Positions 41,308-48,526 of a DNA stretch of 48,526 bases are shown here, one piece after another. The translations under genes were made by a program, and so were the position numbers. The stretch spans positions 1-48,526 of IMG/VR virus record IMGVR_UViG_3300020196_000064; one strand, 5' to 3'. The notes under the pieces are model-generated. The model made no database searches. It saw nothing but the letters and a program-made list of their open reading frames with translations, and had not been told where the DNA came from. How positions within the stretch are numbered: position 1 is the stretch's first letter; the number at the start of each line of letters is the position of its first letter. This DNA is from a virus.

Positions 41308-43836
41308 CTATACGTCAAATGGATTCCCATATGCTTTAACTGCTGCACTATATATTTCCATTGAGGTGGTAAGATTATTATATACTAACATACTACCTTC
41401 TGCAGTCCATGCTTGACACCCAGTTCCATGGAGACCTGTTACAGTATATGAATATGAAGTTGTAGTTTGAGTTGTAACTCCACCTTGTGTTGATGATGTA
41501 CTACTGCTGCTCGATGCTGGAGGTCCAGGCGGAGGGCATATAATATGCCCACATCCAGTTTGTAATGGAGTGCAGCCTATTTTAATTTTAATTTTTGTCG
41601 TTTGACGACGATCTGCTCTATATTGTGTTATTAGATACTTTGTTTTTTCTGATGCCTTAGGCAAGTCAAGAAATCTTCTTTGAACTGTTTCAACTTTAAC
41701 TTCTTTGTATGTTGCAAATTCTGGAATTTTTTCCTGAGTAATTGCAGACATATGATTATCTATCGCTACATTTGTTGTAGAAGAGGCAGTATCATAGGAT
41801 TTGGAAAACTCAATTTCTGCTGAAGATGGATTGGTAAGATTATTAAGTACACTACCATCCATTTTATCAAAATTTTTCTTAAGTTTTTTCACCTTATCTT
41901 CAGAAAATAATCTCTGATTTAGTTGTAATTTTCTATTTCTATTTTGATCAGCTAAGAGGACTCCATTATCAACCTCACTAACAACTTTTCTCTCTGTATA
42001 GGAATCTTTTACTCTATCTAAAGCTGCTTTACCGTCAGGTGTTTTGAATCCAGCTTCAAACTCTGGCCAATATTCTTTTGCTGGACCACTCGTAATTTTA
42101 TCTAACTGAGTAGTGATTGCTGCTTCTTCGTCAGTTTGTCCAGTATTAGTAACTTTTTCTTCTTTTTTATACCTGTTTCTGATACCAATAATAGGTGGAT
42201 TTGAAGAACTATACCCAGTGCCAGGATCAGTGATTTTAAGACCTGTCAAAACACCATTTGAAAACGTGCCTTCGGCTTTTGCTTGCCTTCCAGTCGTAGT
42301 ATCTGGTGGAGTTACAAACATAATTGGTGTGCCAACACCAGCTGTATTCCATCCTTCACCCCCATCAGTGATTACAGCACTACTGATTTGCCCATTTGAG
42401 ACAGTAACAGTAATTTTTGGATCTTTAATTACTGAATAAATGTTTGGTGCGTCATTATTTACACTAAGAGTGGTATATTGAATCGATTTATCGGTAAATT
42501 CATATAAACCTATCAAAGCACACCTATCTTTTATACCATATCCAGCGACTGCAGTGATAATATGATTCCTATTTGATGTATATTGAGCGTTTTTAGTGAA
42601 TTCAGATCCACTACCATTAAGATATATTACATGATAGGCAAAATTTTCAGTGTCGGTATGACCAGTTTCAGTGATTACGTGCCCATTAATGGTATCTCCC
42701 TCTCTCAGAAGGTCAAATCCAACTGGAGCACCGACAGTATTGACTGGACCAAGACCAGTAATCTTAATGGAGAAGTTAAAAGTTGTGGTTGTTGAGTCTG
42801 GATGAGAGTGTACATACGTCAGTGGGAAGGTTTGATTCAAAGAATAACCTTGACCAGGTGCTAATAATTCCAAAATTTCAAATGTTGTGCCAGTAATTAC
42901 TAATGGCTCAACATCAAAGTTGATTGTTGGCTTAATACCAATCTTTACTCGGAGTCCTTGTGCTGTTGTAGTCTCAACAACAGTGTCTTCATAGATATAA
43001 AATTGATTAACATTTGTTTCTGATGCAAACCATGGATTAAAATTGACCAAAATTGGATCTAATGATCCCGTAGTAGTGCTATCATAAGCAAGTACATCAA
43101 TATTTTGCCCTTGGGCATCATACATGAAGTTAATTTTTGTCACCCCAGTAGGAACTTCTGTAGATAAAGCGTTGTATTTGAAGATTAATTTCTTAGAATC
43201 CGTGCCAATTCCATAGATTGTCGGATATGGGCAGTCTGGATCGCCAGTTTCATCACCACTTTCTGTAGTATAACTGCATGTCATTTTATTTGGAGTGCAG
43301 AAAAATGACGTACATTCAACGCAAATTGCTCCATCTGCCGTTGGTGCTGTTGTTGTGGATCCTCCAGGTGGATTGGTGCCTCCCGTAAAAGTCGATGATC
43401 CTGTCCGTTGCTCATGAATCAACCAATAGCATGGATTATCAATTACCCCTGCATTTGCACCAGATTCCCAAACATATATGAACCAAGTGTCACTATCCAT
43501 CCATTTGAAAGATAATCCATTTGGTGTACTGTCAAAAATCTTTTGCTGAGTATTACATACTCCCCTTACTTCCTTTCCACAAGTAGCACCTGCAAGCTCA
43601 GTTGCACCAACTGGAGATGAATATGATCTTCCAGAATTCGTAGTAACAAGTGTCCCACCATATAAAACCTGATTCTGTGGAGGTCTCCTTACGTTACCAT
43701 ACGTGATTGGAGTTGGATATGTCTCGTGAATAGATAATTTTGTACGTTTTGCATCCCCTGGCACCTGAGGATCACAATGACTCGTGTCTAGAGAAAACCC
43801 ACTACATGCACTCCCATCTGTATGGCAATCAGGCAT
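41308..43836 (-). CDS. Virion structural protein with cysteine-containing ends (842 aa)
   Basis: I do not recognise a named family. The N-terminus has three cysteines in 21 residues (MPDCHTDGSACSGF, then HCDPQ), and more follow at residues 85-195. Residues 500-570 carry GxGY-type beta repeats (ITDGGEGWN, KITDPGTGYSSSNPPIIGI) like those in the other structural proteins. Residues 590-730 are charged and helical (DRVKDSYTERKVVSEVDNGV). The C-terminal part has IGCTPLQTGCGHIICPPPGP, a Ser/Thr linker, then a compact end (LHGTGCQAWTAEGSMLVYNN). It starts eight bases before the stop of the 101-residue gene and is followed by the PAAR gene. A hub, spike or tail-tip role is inferred from the neighbours. 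Confidence 0.82.
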   Translation of the reverse strand: MPDCHTDGSACSGFSLDTSHCDPQVPGDAKRTKLSIHETYPTPITYGNVRRPPQNQVLYGGTLVTTNSGRSYSSPVGATELAGATCGKEVRGVCNTQQKIFDSTPNGLSFKWMDSDTWFIYVWESGANAGVIDNPCYWLIHEQRTGSSTFTGGTNPPGGSTTTAPTADGAICVECTSFFCTPNKMTCSYTTESGDETGDPDCPYPTIYGIGTDSKKLIFKYNALSTEVPTGVTKINFMYDAQGQNIDVLAYDSTTTGSLDPILVNFNPWFASETNVNQFYIYEDTVVETTTAQGLRVKIGIKPTINFDVEPLVITGTTFEILELLAPGQGYSLNQTFPLTYVHSHPDSTTTTFNFSIKITGLGPVNTVGAPVGFDLLREGDTINGHVITETGHTDTENFAYHVIYLNGSGSEFTKNAQYTSNRNHIITAVAGYGIKDRCALIGLYEFTDKSIQYTTLSVNNDAPNIYSVIKDPKITVTVSNGQISSAVITDGGEGWNTAGVGTPIMFVTPPDTTTGRQAKAEGTFSNGVLTGLKITDPGTGYSSSNPPIIGIRNRYKKEEKVTNTGQTDEEAAITTQLDKITSGPAKEYWPEFEAGFKTPDGKAALDRVKDSYTERKVVSEVDNGVLLADQNRNRKLQLNQRLFSEDKVKKLKKNFDKMDGSVLNNLTNPSSAEIEFSKSYDTASSTTNVAIDNHMSAITQEKIPEFATYKEVKVETVQRRFLDLPKASEKTKYLITQYRADRRQTTKIKIKIGCTPLQTGCGHIICPPPGPPASSSSSTSSTQGGVTTQTTTSYSYTVTGLHGTGCQAWTAEGSMLVYNNLTTSMEIYSAAVKAYGNPFDV

Positions 43837-44134
43837 TGTCCTCTAACACTCCTAGTTTTGTGTAAATTAGATCTAAATTCTCTTTGATATTCAAATATCC
43901 TTCCATTTCATTTTGTATATCCGTGCCTATAGGTTTGTATAGTACTTTATCAACAGACTGAATATCTTCTATGTATTCAACAACGATATTGTGTGCGGAT
44001 TCTAGATCATTCAAACGCTCACCAATCTTGATAAGACATTCATTTACCGTCTTCATTGCATCATGAATGTCAGCAAATCGATTATCAACTTCCTGAATCA
44101 TTTGTTGAATAAGTTTGTTTTCCTCTTCTGTCAT
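43829..44134 (-). CDS. Small coiled-coil protein (101 aa), function unknown
   Basis: The sequence is acidic and mostly helical with clear heptads (LIQQMIQEVDNRFADIHDAM, then VNECLIKIGERLNDLESAHN), so a coiled-coil oligomer is likely. No catalytic motif is visible. Its end overlaps the 842-residue gene by eight bases, so the two are translated together, and it could act as an assembly partner or linker for that protein. The upstream 54 bases hold two copies of ACCGCG but no clear promoter. Confidence 0.8.
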   Translation of the reverse strand: MTEEENKLIQQMIQEVDNRFADIHDAMKTVNECLIKIGERLNDLESAHNIVVEYIEDIQSVDKVLYKPIGTDIQNEMEGYLNIKENLDLIYTKLGVLEDNA

Positions 44135-44188
44135 TATATGAAATGTAAACGCGGTTTTTTGTGGTTTTCGCGGTGTGGTAGCGCGACA

Positions 44189-44356
44189 TTAATCTTCAAG
44201 TTTCTTGAGAGTAAAACTTCCAGTGACATCATCAACCTCATATTCTAAAGAATCTCCCTCTTTCCATCCAAGATCTTCACAGATTTCATCAGGAATAGGA
44301 AGAATTAACTCTCCAAACTCGTCTTCTTCGATAGTGATAGTGAATCTCTTGGACAT
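44189..44356 (-). CDS. AbrB/SpoVT-like small DNA-binding-fold protein (55 aa)
   Basis: The sequence begins MSKRFTITIEEDEFGELILP, continues IPDEICEDLGWKEGDSLEYE and ends FTLKKLED. This is the swapped-hairpin pattern of AbrB and MazE-type proteins: a beta strand, ILPIPDEI, the hinge LGWKEGD and a final strand. Such proteins bind DNA as dimers, as regulators or antitoxins. No toxin gene is adjacent, so a toxin-antitoxin pair is not supported. It is the first gene after the strong promoter at 44633-44661 and stands at the border between the small genes and the structural genes, which would suit a transcription regulator. AGGTTATAAGAATT before the ATG gives only a weak ribosome binding site. Confidence 0.75.
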   Translation of the reverse strand: MSKRFTITIEEDEFGELILPIPDEICEDLGWKEGDSLEYEVDDVTGSFTLKKLED

Positions 44357-44640
44357 AATTCTTATAACCTATTAACTTATGGATTATTTGTCGGATTATT
44401 CACCTGACGAATTTTCCAGTTTATAAAAACCTCAGAGGTAAATTTTTTTCCTGGGAATTTTTTTTTATATAGGCTGGAAGGAGATTCGATTTTGATATAT
44501 CTAAGGCGTTGGGATACTTTTGTAGGTTAGGGTAGTATTCGGTTTTTAATTTAGGGGCCGCCCTAAGTATAACAAACCCCAAATTTAACTGCGATTTCGT
44601 ATAATTTAGTGAGGGACATTTGACTGCCCCTCAGTATACC
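44357..44640. other. Non-coding leader between small genes and structural genes
   Basis: This 284-base stretch has no gene I can support. On the minus strand one frame is open for 69 codons (44424-44630) but contains no ATG. A short palindrome, TTAGGG with CCCTAA, lies near 44550-44566, and ACCTCTGAGGT followed by TTTTT near 44426-44436 could be a weak terminator. Long A and T runs lie at 44440-44475. It probably is the leader of the transcript from the promoter at 44633-44661. Confidence 0.5.
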
Positions 44641-44661
44641 TCAGAAGTCGATCTCTGTCAA
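44633..44661 (-). promoter_or_regulatory. Near-consensus sigma70 promoter reading into the structural genes
   Basis: The minus strand has TTGACA at 44661-44656, a spacer of exactly 17 bases and TATACT at 44638-44633, so 11 of 12 bases match the bacterial consensus. The -35 lies inside the last codons of the 56-residue gene. The first gene downstream is the AbrB-like gene, about 280 bases away. Confidence 0.75.
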
Positions 44662-44811
44662 GGTCGGAATACCCAGGACAGACTCAATCATGGGCGACTC
44701 AATATAATCGAAGGTGCTCACATTGTCAGAGGTGAGGGCATCGAGAATCGAGAGGATATCGGTGCCAGTGCTACCCTGACGGAGCATCGAGATCATAACA
44801 GATTTGGACAT
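44641..44811 (-). CDS. Phage miniprotein (56 aa), function unknown
   Basis: The frame reads MSKSVMISMLRQGSTGTDIL, then a helical stretch and the end IPTLTEIDF. The opening MLRQGSTGxxILxILD pattern is one I associate with small cyanophage proteins, but no function is known to me. Two short helices and no cysteine or metal motif are visible. It follows the 104-residue gene by 65 bases. The end of this gene doubles as the -35 element of the promoter at 44633-44661. No clear ribosome binding site precedes the ATG. Confidence 0.72.
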   Translation of the reverse strand: MSKSVMISMLRQGSTGTDILSILDALTSDNVSTFDYIESPMIESVLGIPTLTEIDF

Positions 44812-44876
44812 AGGATTGTGCTGTTGAGTGTTAGTGAATGTGGGGTGAGTTTAGTGTCATCACCCAGGACAGATTG

Positions 44877-45191
44877 TCATGCCAGACGCATACCATCAAA
44901 GAAAGGAATTGCACCACCTTCCTGTTGCACAAACCACTGAAAGTTTTTCTGGAAGACTTTCTCACCAGGCAAACCATGCACAGAGAGAAGTGCATTGAGG
45001 CGGGACTTTGTGGTCACAGAATGCCATCCACCAGAGAAGAGTTGGATGAAGTCGTTACCAATGGAAGCGATGTGATTGCCGTGCAGATAGACAAACGAAA
45101 CGTCGCTAATCGTCACGACTTGAGTGTTGCCAGACTTGAAATCTTTCCGATCGATGATGGCGTCATTCATCTTGGTTTCGATCTTACGCAT
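44877..45191 (-). CDS. Conserved cyanophage-type small protein (104 aa), function unknown
   Basis: The pattern FKSGNTQVV, VYLHGNHIA, GGWHSVTTKSRLNALLS and VFQKNFQWFV, ending PFFDGMRLA, is one I recognise as a recurrent small protein of marine myoviruses; its role is not known to me. It appears to be a compact alpha/beta protein without a membrane segment. The first ATG is used because the alternative at residue 8 would shorten the conserved start. Its leader of roughly 60 bases carries one of the three repeated CATACT promoter blocks. The TTGACA promoter at 45380-45408 may also feed it. Confidence 0.8.
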   Translation of the reverse strand: MRKIETKMNDAIIDRKDFKSGNTQVVTISDVSFVYLHGNHIASIGNDFIQLFSGGWHSVTTKSRLNALLSVHGLPGEKVFQKNFQWFVQQEGGAIPFFDGMRLA

Positions 45192-45249
45192 GAGAGGAAT
45201 CTGAGAGGGTCTGTGAAGTGTTTAGGAGGTCTCTCCCCCTGATGTCCTT

Positions 45250-45308
45250 AGTATGGCACCTCTGGGGGGTCTGTGGGGGGTTTGGTGGACACTTGTCAGA
45301 CTGGCACA
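45250..45308 (-). promoter_or_regulatory. Repeated early-promoter block, copy 3
   Basis: The minus strand reads GTGCCATACTAAGG around the -10 (45255-45250) and carries the conserved upstream piece TGTGCCAGTCT at the far end, 59 bases in total. The -35 TTGCAA of the other two copies is replaced by CCCCAC, so this copy may be weaker or need an activator. It serves the 104-residue gene. Confidence 0.5.
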
Positions 45309-45379
45309 CCCTGACCCTGATTTCTCTTTACTTTCCTCCCAAAGTACTTAGTTGGTTCTCTTTAACCCTGACAGTGTTG

Positions 45380-45408
45380 ATTGTAGAGGATCTCGGAATG
45401 TTTGTCAA
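45380..45408 (-). promoter_or_regulatory. Near-consensus sigma70 promoter in the small-gene region
   Basis: The minus strand has TTGACA at 45408-45403, a 17-base spacer and TACAAT at 45385-45380, 11 of 12 matches to consensus. The transcript would start near 45373 and run into the 104-residue gene through a leader of about 180 bases that includes the second promoter block. Confidence 0.7.
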
Positions 45409-45573
45409 GAGGGTAATGCGATTGATGAGCATTTCTGATGGGTCTGTGAGACATTTGGAGTCCTTATCTGTGAGGGGTTGACTATCGATAGGAAACGTGC
45501 TAAGGTTGCTATTTCTCTGCACATTTCTTTCGATCAACATCACTCACCCACGTTTTTTTCGACATTTAATAAG

Positions 45574-45625
45574 TTTTCCGCAATTTCCACAATTTATACT
45601 TTTCTGTGGAAAAACCTGTGGAAAA
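45574..45625. repeat. Cluster of four DnaA-box-like 9-mers
   Basis: On the plus strand TTTTCCGCA (45574-45582) and ATTTCCACA (45583-45591) lie head to tail with no gap. On the minus strand two exact TTTTCCACA copies occupy 45605-45613 and 45617-45625. From memory, TTTTCCACA is the DnaA-box form reported for cyanobacterial origins. The four sites face each other around an AT-rich centre. Whether this is an origin, a regulator site or chance is open. Confidence 0.5.
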
Positions 45626-45699
45626 CTATACTTAGTATCTCTCTGAGAGTGACAACAATGTAAGACCATTCTTCCTTTGGAGTTGTTACTGTAGTGACA

Positions 45700-45936
45700 T
45701 TACTTTTGATCTTCATGTATTACATCCTTCCAGTCTTCTGGATAACATAGCACACACACTTTCTCTTTCTTGTGTAATGCTGCTGGATCATGTCTTGCAT
45801 ACTCATTCACACAAATGGTGATGTAATAGTCATCAATGAAATGTACGTAACCAATCAAATGTTTCCACCTTACTTTCTCTCCTATCCGAAAAGTTGTTGT
45901 AGAGGATTGATCTTTGGTGGTTTCATTGCTGTCCAT
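45700..45936 (-). CDS. Small SH3-like phage protein (78 aa), function unknown
   Basis: After a polar N-terminus of 14 residues the pattern FRIGEKVRWKHLIGYVHFID, DYYITICVNE, then VCVLCYPEDWKDV reads as a small beta barrel of the SH3/KOW type. I know similar miniproteins in cyanophages but no function. The ATG lies 55 bases inside the 102-residue gene in another frame, and no later ATG exists, so the overlap appears real unless a rare start codon is used further in. The next feature downstream is the long non-coding region with the DnaA-box-like cluster. Confidence 0.72.
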   Translation of the reverse strand: MDSNETTKDQSSTTTFRIGEKVRWKHLIGYVHFIDDYYITICVNEYARHDPAALHKKEKVCVLCYPEDWKDVIHEDQK

Positions 45937-46190
45937 TTCGTTGTTAGTTTGGGGTCGATGATTGTGCCGACTGTTTTACTATTAACTGGGGAATAGATTG
46001 CATTACTCTTCTTGTGAATGAATCCCCAGATTGTAGTTACTTGCTTTGTCGTGTAACTATACTTATCTGGGTGCCAGAGATCGACTCTCCAGAAACGTGC
46101 ATTGTGCTCGCTGATGACATACCTATGATCCTGGGGTGCCTGATGAGGAAGGTCGGATACTTTCGGTTGCTCAGTATTGACTTTTCTCAT
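45882..46190 (-). CDS. Conserved phage miniprotein (102 aa), function unknown
   Basis: The core RYVISEHNARFWRVDLWHPD, then TIWGFIHKKSNAIYSPVNSK and VGTIIDPKLTTKWTAM reads as a compact beta-rich domain that I associate with small cyanophage proteins. No enzymatic motif is seen. Its start overlaps the end of a 54-residue frame by 20 bases and its end overlaps the 78-residue gene by 55 bases. The tight packing fits early phage genes. Function is not known. Confidence 0.78.
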   Translation of the reverse strand: MRKVNTEQPKVSDLPHQAPQDHRYVISEHNARFWRVDLWHPDKYSYTTKQVTTIWGFIHKKSNAIYSPVNSKTVGTIIDPKLTTKWTAMKPPKINPLQQLFG

Positions 46191-46335
46191 ACAATTTGCG
46201 ATCCAAATAGTCTAGATACTGATCAGAAGTTAGCAACTCTTCAACACACTGACCATCAAGGAAAGTGTGATAGTTGACGCTGCAATTCGACTCGGATTGA
46301 GATGAGTCTTTCGTAGATGAATTGTTGATAGTCAT
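46171..46335 (-). CDS. Possible miniprotein (54 aa) heavily overlapping its neighbour
   Basis: The frame reads MTINNSSTKDSSQSESNCSV, then FLDGQCVEELLTSDQYLDYL and ends YEKSQY. The C-terminal half looks like a real helical miniprotein. The only ATG lies 80 bases inside the 52-residue gene in another frame, which is a large overlap, and the N-terminal 20 residues look unstructured. Either the overlap is true or translation starts later at a non-ATG codon. The end overlaps the 102-residue gene by 20 bases. Confidence 0.5.
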   Translation of the reverse strand: MTINNSSTKDSSQSESNCSVNYHTFLDGQCVEELLTSDQYLDYLDRKLYEKSQY

Positions 46336-46414
46336 TGCCCTCAAGTAGTGAGATCAGATTGTCAATTTGTTGTAGCGCGAGAATTAACTTTGTCTGCTCA
46401 TTTGTGAGTTGCAT
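46256..46414 (-). CDS. Small helical phage protein (52 aa), function unknown
   Basis: The sequence MQLTNEQTKLILALQQIDNL, then ISLLEGNDYQQFIYERLISI and VELQRQL is almost entirely helical, with a pattern I recognise from short cyanophage proteins without known role. The ATG lies 17 bases inside the end of the 67-residue gene. A possible ribosome binding site, AAGGAG, lies at the usual distance upstream (AAGGAGTTAGTGTATC then ATG). Confidence 0.7.
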   Translation of the reverse strand: MQLTNEQTKLILALQQIDNLISLLEGNDYQQFIYERLISIRVELQRQLSHFP

Positions 46415-46601
46415 GATACACTAACTCCTTGAGCATTTCTTCTCCATAGACTCTACGAATGAGCGACTTGAGTGAATCTTCATCGTTTGGAATGGTGTTG
46501 AGCAGATCCTGAAAGATCGTCTCTTGAAGATCACCAAAGTCACTACCTTCGCAGACTCTTTCTGCATACAATCGTTTGAGTTGTTGTAGATAATCATCCA
46601 T
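46398..46601 (-). CDS. Small helical phage protein (67 aa), function unknown
   Basis: The sequence MDDYLQQLKRLYAERVCEGS, then DLQETIFQDLLNTIPNDEDS and LIRRVYGEEMLKELVYHA is helical and acidic. No domain is recognised. It ends 17 bases inside the next gene, consistent with coupled translation in this packed block. The first ATG is used; there is no second one before residue 55. Confidence 0.75.
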   Translation of the reverse strand: MDDYLQQLKRLYAERVCEGSDFGDLQETIFQDLLNTIPNDEDSLKSLIRRVYGEEMLKELVYHATHK

Positions 46602-46680
46602 GAGATCTGACGATTGTTTTGTTGGTAGGTTTGTTGTTAAACATGACTGCGCGGATTTGTACAGTTTGCTTCCGCACCAT
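46594..46680 (-). CDS. Possible short basic peptide (28 aa)
   Basis: The frame reads MVRKQTVQIRAVMFNNKPTN and ends RSHG; a GTG start nine codons earlier would overlap the stop of the 51-residue gene as GTGA. It fills most of the gap between two better-supported genes and overlaps the next ATG by eight bases, but at this length it could be chance. Confidence 0.3.
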   Translation of the reverse strand: MVRKQTVQIRAVMFNNKPTNKTIVRSHG

Positions 46681-46703
46681 GTTGGTTTGACGTTGTTCGC
46701 GAC

Positions 46704-46859
46704 TCACTTAACTTCTCCTTGCATGGTTTGACCAACCCAGACAAATGCAGATCCTACATTATACCTGAAAGATGGAGAGATTAGACACAAAGCAACAATC
46801 AGGAGAGCAAAAAGATTCATGGGATTGGGTATCTTAAAGGTGAGAGATTTGCGAGACAT
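46704..46859 (-). CDS. Small single-span membrane protein (51 aa)
   Basis: The sequence has a basic start (MSRKSLTFKIPNP), a hydrophobic segment of about 18 residues (MNLFALLIVALCLISPSF, residues 14-31) and a polar tail (SAFVWVGQTMQGEVK). This fits a single membrane span with the basic end on the cytoplasmic side. It begins five bases after the stop of the 64-residue gene. It is the only clear membrane protein in the window. A role in host takeover, superinfection exclusion or lysis control is possible, but nothing in the sequence decides between these. Confidence 0.68.
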   Translation of the reverse strand: MSRKSLTFKIPNPMNLFALLIVALCLISPSFRYNVGSAFVWVGQTMQGEVK

Positions 46860-46864
46860 TGTGA

Positions 46865-47059
46865 TCAGAAAGGGTTTGACCAGCGATATGCTTGAGAATC
46901 AGAAACATAACCCTCTTTGTTGAGTGCATCCACAAAGTTTGCCCAGTATTCACGCTTTGCAATCGTGTCAGTTTTGAGTGAAGGTTGGACCAGAGTTGCA
47001 ACCTTCCAGTTGTAACGAAACTGGGAGAGTGCGGACTGTTTGGTGATCGTGCGGGGCAT
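46865..47059 (-). CDS. Basic phage miniprotein (64 aa), function unknown
   Basis: The start is placed at MPRTITKQSALSQFRYNWKV because AAAGGACACACA before it gives a good ribosome binding site, while the longer reading from 47107 would place the CATACT promoter inside the gene. The rest (LVQPSLKTDTIAKREYWANF, then VDALNKEGYVSDSQAYRWSN) is helical and basic. No family with known function is recognised. It is the first gene after promoter block copy 1 and is followed five bases later by the membrane-protein gene. Confidence 0.78.
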   Translation of the reverse strand: MPRTITKQSALSQFRYNWKVATLVQPSLKTDTIAKREYWANFVDALNKEGYVSDSQAYRWSNPF

Positions 47060-47083
47060 TGTGTGTCCTTTGTTGATGTCTAT

Positions 47084-47143
47084 AGTATGGCACCGATCAG
47101 GGGACATTGCAACCCCCTGTGTGCCACTTCCTAGACTGGCACA
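47084..47143 (-). promoter_or_regulatory. Repeated early-promoter block, copy 1
   Basis: The minus strand has TTGCAA at 47112-47107, a 17-base spacer and CATACT at 47089-47084. Directly upstream, TGTGCCA and TGGCACA form a perfect seven-base inverted repeat around ten bases (47119-47143), and GGTGCCA recurs just before the -10. The block spans 60 bases and overlaps the end of the 65-residue gene. Confidence 0.68.
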
Positions 47144-47328
47144 AGACCGAACCGCTCGATCATAATGTCACGAACATGTTCGCGGTCGAAACTATCACCA
47201 TCGCACCAACGTGTGCCAGGTGATGTTAAGTACTGTATGGTGGCGTCGATGATCATCTCATCTGTGGCACCCATGTTATAAATGCCACCAGGACCATAGA
47301 ATGAACGAACGTAGTTGATGAATTGCAT
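47131..47328 (-). CDS. Cyanophage-type miniprotein with YGPGGIY motif (65 aa)
   Basis: The start is placed at MQFINYVRSFYGPGGIYNMG, two bases after the stop of the preceding 52-residue gene; the longer reading from a TTG at 47409 overlaps that gene in another frame. The conserved parts are FYGPGGIYNMGATDE and GDSFDREHVRDIMIERFG, a pattern I recognise from short proteins in Synechococcus and Prochlorococcus phages whose role is not known to me. The stop codon lies inside the inverted repeat of promoter block copy 1. Confidence 0.78.
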   Translation of the reverse strand: MQFINYVRSFYGPGGIYNMGATDEMIIDATIQYLTSPGTRWCDGDSFDREHVRDIMIERFGLVPV

Positions 47329-47330
47329 AA

Positions 47331-47489
47331 TCAGATCACAGAAACTTCGACACGCTTGAGATTCAATCCACACAGTTGATTGTAGACGCGCTTGCTGATA
47401 GTATCGCAAGCATTTTTTAACTTAGATCGCTCGTACCAGATAGTGATACAACCGTCGAAAGTTTCAACCTGAATACGAATGTCTTTCAT
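47331..47489 (-). CDS. Phage miniprotein (52 aa), function unknown
   Basis: The frame reads MKDIRIQVETFDGCITIWYE, then RSKLKNACDTISKRVYNQLC and ends VEVSVI, an alternating beta-alpha-beta pattern. It fits exactly between its neighbours: it starts seven bases after the stop of the 55-residue gene and ends two bases before the ATG of the 65-residue gene. No family is recognised. TGATCTGATC before the ATG gives no strong ribosome binding site, so it may depend on coupling. Confidence 0.68.
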   Translation of the reverse strand: MKDIRIQVETFDGCITIWYERSKLKNACDTISKRVYNQLCGLNLKRVEVSVI

Positions 47490-47496
47490 GATCAGA

Positions 47497-47664
47497 TCAG
47501 TATGCAGAAACAGTGGTGTAAAGAGTGTTGGTTGAGTTATACCAGAGATTCACATCACACTGGTATTCTTCACTCAAACTGTAGGCGATGTCGTATGCTT
47601 GATCAAGGTCAACAGTTTGATTCTCCCAGGGAGCAGCAGAGCAGCGGATGTCGATTCGAGTCAT
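47497..47664 (-). CDS. Phage miniprotein (55 aa), function unknown
   Basis: The start is placed at MTRIDIRCSAAPWENQTVDL because the CATACT promoter lies 24 bases upstream; the longer reading from 47772 would run through that promoter. The rest (AYDIAYSLSEEYQCDVNLWY, then STNTLYTTVSAY) looks like a small alpha/beta fold. No function is recognised. The promoter-to-ATG distance equals that of the 64-residue gene, which supports both start choices. Confidence 0.72.
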   Translation of the reverse strand: MTRIDIRCSAAPWENQTVDLDQAYDIAYSLSEEYQCDVNLWYNSTNTLYTTVSAY

Positions 47665-47688
47665 GTTTGTTTCGTTTGGTATGCAACT

Positions 47689-47749
47689 AGTATGGCACCC
47701 CCTCGGGCATATTGCAAGGGGGGGTTGTGCCACTTTCTCAACTGTCACA
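47689..47749 (-). promoter_or_regulatory. Repeated early-promoter block, copy 2
   Basis: The minus strand has TTGCAA at 47717-47712, a 17-base spacer and CATACT at 47694-47689, the same layout as copy 1. The upstream inverted repeat (47726-47749) has one mismatch. The block spans 61 bases and includes the stop codon of the 74-residue gene. Confidence 0.68.
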
Positions 47750-47969
47750 CAATGGCATAAGTATTCAACCATTGCCCAACATCTGTGCTACGATTACACA
47801 AACGCAGCATATCAAAGCGACGCACAGGCACTGCATAGACGTTGCCCGATGTCATTTTGACAATGACAATTCCAGTCAATGGAGACAGAATCACGGCATC
47901 AAATGCCTTGCTTTGAGTACAATCAATCTGCACGAATACGGGCAGGTTTTCAATAATCCAGTCGAACAT
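47745..47969 (-). CDS. Phage miniprotein (74 aa), possible beta-rich fold
   Basis: The sequence MFDWIIENLPVFVQIDCTQS is followed by VKMTSGNVYAVPVRRFDMLR and ends WLNTYAIV. The second half resembles small proteins with a TSGNVY strand and a following helix that occur in cyanophages, loosely like KTSC-type domains; this is a weak call. It starts 69 bases after the end of the 123-residue gene, with no clear ribosome binding site. Its stop codon overlaps promoter block copy 2. Confidence 0.65.
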   Translation of the reverse strand: MFDWIIENLPVFVQIDCTQSKAFDAVILSPLTGIVIVKMTSGNVYAVPVRRFDMLRLCNRSTDVGQWLNTYAIV

Positions 47970-48038
47970 TTGTGGGTCAGTGATGGTGAAAGTAGTAACG
48001 AACGAGAATTGAAGCGAAGAAGATTGTCTGTGAAAGAA

Positions 48039-48410
48039 TCACGCAATCTCCTCAAATTGCAGATCCTGAATGAGATCCATTGCAACGGTCAGAGCATCAT
48101 CAAAGGACCGCACATCCTCAGCGATACACTTAGAACAACCAGGGCGACCCGTGGTAGAGTCAGCAACCTCAAGTTGCACCCAGACGTTAAACACATCGTA
48201 GGCATCTCCTGCCATGTAAGTGTTACCATCGTACTTATCCTCTTTGATGAGAATAGGGGCACCACGTTTGGTGCTGTGCTTAATCGTGATGGTAGGATCT
48301 TCGATCATCGTGTAGACATCGAAGGTGTCACCTTTCAGAGTGCGATTGACACAAACGAACTCAGCGGAGAGATCGTTACCAGTTTGGAATTGGGTTGCTT
48401 TGTTTTTCAT
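48039..48410 (-). CDS. Phage protein with CxxC motif (123 aa), function unknown
   Basis: The protein starts MKNKATQFQTGNDLSAEFVC, continues with beta-rich segments (TFDVYTMIEDPTITIKHSTK and FNVWVQLEVADS) and has RPGCSKCIAEDV at residues 89-100, followed by a helical end. The CxxC could bind metal or be redox-active; one pair alone does not decide. No named family is recognised. The ATG lies only seven bases after a TATACT and is preceded by AAGAGC, which may be a weak ribosome binding site. The gap to the next upstream gene is 20 bases. Confidence 0.78.
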   Translation of the reverse strand: MKNKATQFQTGNDLSAEFVCVNRTLKGDTFDVYTMIEDPTITIKHSTKRGAPILIKEDKYDGNTYMAGDAYDVFNVWVQLEVADSTTGRPGCSKCIAEDVRSFDDALTVAMDLIQDLQFEEIA

Positions 48411-48430
48411 GCTCTTAGTATAGGGTGCGC

Positions 48431-48526
48431 TCAGTTGAACCAGTAGGCGAGGTGTGCCAGTTCCTCTGCCGTCTCCTGCAGGTTGTCAGAGGTCAGACCT
48501 GCCAAGATACGCTCGGCATCCTCCCC
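48431..48526 (-). CDS. C-terminal end of a small phage protein (31 residues visible)
   Basis: The frame enters from the right edge and ends with TGA at 48431. The visible residues (GEDAERILAGLTSDNLQETA, then EELAHLAYWFN) are helical and protein-like, and the frame has no stop over 31 codons. The N-terminus lies outside the window. No function is recognised. Confidence 0.6.
   Translation of the reverse strand, partial: GEDAERILAGLTSDNLQETAEELAHLAYWFN

Follow-up and report, generated by a model that had tools for sequence, protein, structure and literature searches.

T4-like cyanophages are abundant marine viruses, and we know of no T4-type origin that uses the host initiator DnaA. Clusters of DnaA boxes outside oriC are found in Escherichia coli at datA and other DnaA-titration loci. 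In cyanobacteria the DnaA box is the 9-mer TTTTCCACA, and its binding by domain IV of DnaA was demonstrated by EMSA and footprinting in Cyanothece (PMC4674748). The oriC regions of Synechococcus elongatus, Anabaena and Cyanothece carry TTTTCCACA boxes beside dnaN. The T4 origins oriF and oriG are each made of a promoter and a DNA unwinding element and are primed by an R-loop, and the review of T4 replication describing them does not mention DnaA (PMC3016281). For the cyanophage Syn9 a single theta origin was predicted (Weigele 2007, as cited in PMC2984593). A literature search found no link between this predicted origin and DnaA boxes, and no mapped origin for any T4-like cyanophage was found in the literature.

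A DnaA-box cluster in a cyanophage non-coding gap

The window (the whole analysed stretch, a 48.5-kb virus record) was identified by DNA comparison as a fragment of a T4-like cyanophage of the family Kyanoviridae, with S-H35 and S-RIM4 as its nearest relatives at the locus described here. The locus lies in a non-coding gap (45192-45699) between genes of 104 and 78 aa, both on the minus strand in the ORF list; the proteins encoded on either side have matches in phrog_554 and phrog_522. S-H35 and S-RIM4 have non-coding DNA that aligns to the gap. The preliminary description, made from the letters of the window, was correct in placing its box cluster in a non-coding gap of a T4-like phage. About 30 bp of the gap (45405-45434), just upstream of a conserved promoter-like block, are missing from four relatives.

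The four 9-mers within 52 bp are present as first described, at 45574-45625. Two of them, on the plus strand, have one mismatch each and are arranged head-to-tail with a 9-bp period: TTTTCCGCA at 45574-45582, whose CCG core is kept in relatives, and ATTTCCACA at 45583-45591, where many relatives have the exact TTTTCCACA. The other two, on the minus strand, are exact cyanobacterial DnaA boxes at 45605-45613, invariant across a five-phage alignment, and at 45617-45625, which gives this pair a 12-bp period. The stretch between the facing boxes (ATTTATACTTTTC, 45592-45604) can fairly be called an AT-rich centre. A fifth match with one mismatch, at 45556, falls in the T-run of an AT-rich motif and was left out of the box count. 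To the right, the flank at 45626-45670 (CTATACTTAGTATCTCTCTGAGAGTGACAACAATGTAAGACCATT / TCTCTGAGAGTnATAnCAATGTA) is well kept in the closer relatives only.

The best 60-bp TTTTCCACA cluster of the window scores 2.8. None of 500 permuted 9-mers and none of 300 dinucleotide-preserving shuffles reached this value (the maximum of each was 1.4), which rules out a chance cluster. Across the window as a whole the 9-mer shows just a mild excess (32 sites with at most one mismatch, 23.5 expected), and the signal therefore resides in the clustering. The window has 4 exact copies of TTTTCCACA, two of them inside the cluster.

Conservation and geometry of the boxes

The gap is 72-86% identical to non-coding DNA of Shandvirus, and weaker alignments were obtained with Namakavirus, Ormenosvirus, Ahtivirus and Neptunevirus phages. 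In S-CAM1, Syn1, S-CAM3 and S-RIM44 a 24-25-mer spanning the tandem boxes (around 45617-45625) is exact, and beyond it there is no alignable DNA at the locus. The box cluster was found again in many other genera. All 16 phages whose whole genomes were picked through similarity to the cluster have an exact TTTTCCACA at the cluster locus, while genome-wide copies are rare (1-12). In Syn9, S-H35, S-MbCM6, S-ShM2, S-PM2, Syn1 and S-SM2 this cluster ranks first among the TTTTCCACA clusters of the genome; in these seven fully scanned genomes 0-5 of 300 permuted 9-mers match it, with the caveat that contigs and isolates are interrelated, so that the items counted are not independent of one another, and neither the permutations nor the shuffles adjust for kinship. 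The search in related phages that had been proposed as a check thus showed that many Kyanoviridae keep the cluster at the corresponding non-coding position, and the lack of conservation in close relatives that was to speak against it did not occur.

Genome scans found no cluster in P-SSM4, S-SSM7, S-CRM01, S-TIM5, S-RSM4, P-HM1 and T4. Universality in Kyanoviridae was rejected: of eight cyanophages selected by name and not through the cluster, S-SM2 alone has two exact boxes close together. The cluster is widespread in this family and not universal. In S-CREM1 (record positions 87785-87828 and 88401-88432), S-ShM2 (52811-52842 and 53068-53092) and S-RIM8 (41476 and 41703-41734) the first cluster is accompanied, at a distance of about 230-600 bp, by another small box cluster or by a lone exact box. 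The deposited S-PM2 record (AJ630128, 19177-19333) has tRNA-Asn and tRNA-Leu genes annotated across the module. ARAGORN found no tRNA in that 6-kb S-PM2 stretch, and these two annotations may be spurious.

A scan of viral contigs in which 6-36 bp were allowed in the inverted pair and 3-4 bp in the tandem pair returned 72 contigs, 71 of them encoding Kyanoviridae-like proteins. The common layout is a box, 14-15 bp, an inverted box, 3 bp and another inverted box. After removal of duplicates, 46 of 53 distinct cores combine the 13-15 bp gap with the 3-bp tandem spacing; most of the others have a gap of 25-26 bp, approximately one extra helical turn. The spacer sequences are diverse across the 72 contigs. 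Such constancy of spacing with variable spacer sequence suggests that a protein complex assembles on the DNA. Tandem TGTGGAAAA boxes with 3-bp spacing were also seen in viral contigs without Kyanoviridae-like genes, some with at least 3 copies; DnaA-box arrays may also exist in other groups of phages.

Inverted boxes could also form an RNA or DNA hairpin (a terminator or cruciform) and not be protein sites at all. Folding is indeed strong for both strands of the window (z about -5), and for S-H35 and S-MbCM6 as well, but Syn1, S-CAM1 and S-H38 have direct repeats only, form no box-box hairpin and reach z of just -0.6 to -2. No T-tract terminator was found at the window module, and a hairpin leaves the fixed spacing of the direct pair unexplained. 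This explanation is very improbable, and as a shared function an RNA hairpin or terminator is unlikely, given the members that have only direct repeats.

The DnaA of marine Synechococcus WH7803 is ordinary and keeps the C-terminal DNA-binding signature. The WH7803 oriC, just upstream of dnaN (called from sequence and position and not by family search), has a weaker pair, TTTTCCACG-TTTTCCCCA, with a 9-bp period, and pairs of this type were seen with variation across much of the host genus. The TTTTCCGCA-ATTTCCACA pair of the window has the same 9-bp period. The perfect tandem pair with 3-bp spacing is present in none of 31 host-genus genomes; together with the different sequence and layout of the oriC boxes, this speaks against a captured fragment of host oriC. 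Exact TTTTCCACA pairs do occur in WH7803 away from dnaN, within genes or close to them, at C1:1819368-1819420 and 177534-177835. The reading of the 9-mers as host-type DnaA boxes is well supported, by the published 9-mer (PMC4674748), the conserved locus and the fixed geometry.

Two other uses of such boxes have to be weighed. In one, already raised in the preliminary description, the array would be a decoy: high-affinity boxes would compete for DnaA with the weaker boxes of oriC, so that host replication would stop or genes under DnaA control would be altered. The phage boxes are indeed perfect consensus, compared with the TTTTCCACG and TTTTCCCCA pair of WH7803, and the absence of the perfect 3-bp-spaced pair from the host-genus genomes fits a decoy as well. 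Titration, however, calls for copies and not for one rigidly phased array coupled to an AT-rich motif and to an antisense promoter that is nearly unique; a decoy is rather unlikely. In the other, the array would bind an initiator or regulator encoded by the phage, with a site resembling a DnaA box. Some Kyanoviridae have the promoter and the AT-rich motif but no boxes, which could mean that a phage factor provides the specificity; yet the boxes are exactly identical to the DnaA box of the host phylum in dozens of sequences and no phage DnaA is obvious: none of the 11 phages tested has a match to PF00308 (DnaA domain) over the cut-off, a result on which a phage-encoded DnaA was rejected. A phage factor of this kind is quite improbable.

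The promoter-like element and the AT-rich motif

Beside the boxes lie a promoter-like element and an AT-rich motif, both missed in the first reading of the window. The promoter-like element, TTGACT-N17-TAAGGT, is on the plus strand at 45478-45506, where it faces the boxes and runs antisense to the genes on either side. It has at most one mismatch to the consensus TTGAC-N15-TGNTARRMY and is of host-type form, with an extended -10 and a 17-bp spacer; a generic sigma-70 scan does not list it, and its -10 hexamer is weak. In aligned relatives the consensus is found about 40-110 bp from the boxes, which lie downstream in the transcribed direction. It is also antisense to the neighbouring genes in all annotated isolates that were read.

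Each phage genome has 0-3 copies of the motif, usually including one at the box cluster, and the element is the sole good match in Syn9, S-H35, S-MbCM6, S-ShM2, S-PM2, Syn1, S-RSM4 and the window. Across 173 viral contigs, a motif within 330 bp of the tandem boxes points toward them in 68 and away from them in 20, compared with 5-10 toward and 8-11 away for random positions. Both the promoter and the AT-rich consensus patterns were written after the alignments had been viewed, and for this reason only the near-uniqueness, the orientation and the random-position control count as tests. An ordinary early-gene promoter is disfavoured by the near-uniqueness of the motif within each genome and by its antisense orientation relative to the genes.

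These features would also suit an antisense or other non-coding RNA gene regulated by DnaA, whose short product would be blocked or timed by DnaA bound downstream and which would have no origin function. The conserved antisense element and the position of the boxes some 40-110 bp downstream of it are what such a gene would have. On the other hand, the module has no Rfam match and the sequence between promoter and boxes is poorly conserved, the AT-rich tract excepted, which makes an RNA gene unlikely.

The AT-rich motif of the window, CACTCACCCACGTTTTTTTCGACATTT (45541-45567, plus strand; consensus CACnnnnCnnnnTTTnTTnannnATTT), is kept in relatives and is a candidate unwinding element. It is found beside the promoter-like element in S-H35, S-ShM2, S-PM2, Syn1, S-RSM4, P-HM1 and the window. 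In most phages read the promoter-like element comes first and the AT-rich motif second; the order differs in S-SM2 and S-SCSM1, in which the boxes precede the AT-rich stretch. The association of boxes, promoter-like element and AT-rich motif is directly observed, as is the antisense placement. In S-RSM4 (NC_013085, 140181-140250) and P-HM1 (NC_015280, 34414-34502) the promoter-like element and the AT-rich motif are present without boxes, and the boxes are therefore not obligatory. They look like an addition to the core module, or a part of it that can be lost.

A candidate replication origin and its relation to known systems

On present evidence the module is probably the replication origin of a T4-like cyanophage, or the initiator-loading part of one. 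The origin role proposed in the preliminary description is plausible: it is strengthened by the antisense promoter-like element and the AT-rich motif, but GC skew lends it no support, and the box-less S-RSM4 and P-HM1, the cyanophages that lack the cluster, the poor -10 hexamer of the window and the placement of the AT-rich motif relative to host oriC count against it. The locus is the best candidate so far for the replication start site of these cyanophages, and its boxes suggest that they borrow the initiator protein of the host. That many T4-like cyanophages start replication at one hybrid origin, made of an antisense promoter, an AT-rich tract and a DnaA-recruiting array, has a roughly even chance of being right.

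DnaA binding, transcription, an R-loop and origin activity are predicted here from DNA sequence. At such an origin, antisense transcription would begin at the promoter-like element, carried out by the RNA polymerase of the host and probably directed by the housekeeping sigma factor. In much the same way as at T4 oriF and oriG, the transcript would unwind the AT-rich tract, either transiently or by forming an R-loop. The phased TTTTCCACA array would be occupied by host DnaA, with monomers held at distances (3 bp and 14-15 bp) that would allow cooperative contact, and bound DnaA would help to melt the site or hold it open for loading of the phage helicase. A host-type promoter at the origin of a cyanomyovirus would make sense because these phages lack MotA (PMC2984593).

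The GC-skew check gave no support for an origin at the module: no inflection was found there in any of nine phage genomes. This is a weak test, since almost every gene is on the same strand and the skew is blurred by recombination-dependent replication. In the window, GC content rises and GC skew turns positive at 43501-48500 while the genes stay on the minus strand; this was not seen at the modules of relatives.

If the origin reading is true, these T4-like viruses would have their replication coupled to the cyanobacterial initiator, and perhaps to the control that the cell cycle or light exerts on it. The module would connect phage replication with the host initiator in a concrete way, and it is a precise single-locus origin candidate in well-studied isolates (Syn9, S-PM2, Syn1, S-H35). 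S-RSM4 and P-HM1 would provide a natural comparison of DnaA-dependent and DnaA-independent forms. Syn9, for which the single theta origin was predicted, belongs to the same phage group and carries the module at about 52.55-52.70 kb.

Compared with known systems, the module shares with cyanobacterial oriC the same 9-mer, several boxes in a non-coding gap and an adjoining AT-rich tract, and its 9-bp-period pair resembles that of marine Synechococcus oriC. Unlike oriC, it is not beside dnaN, its boxes are inverted with 14-15 bp and 3 bp spacing, its AT-rich motif flanks the boxes on the other side, and it is coupled to an antisense promoter-like element. Like E. coli datA it is a cluster of DnaA boxes outside oriC, but it is compact, geometrically fixed and accompanied by the promoter-like element and the AT-rich motif. 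As at T4 oriF and oriG, a promoter-like element in a T4-like genome points into an AT-rich tract. The cyanophage element, however, is of host type (TTGAC-N17) and not MotA-dependent, and the module, unlike the T4 origins, is apparently a single locus and carries DnaA boxes.
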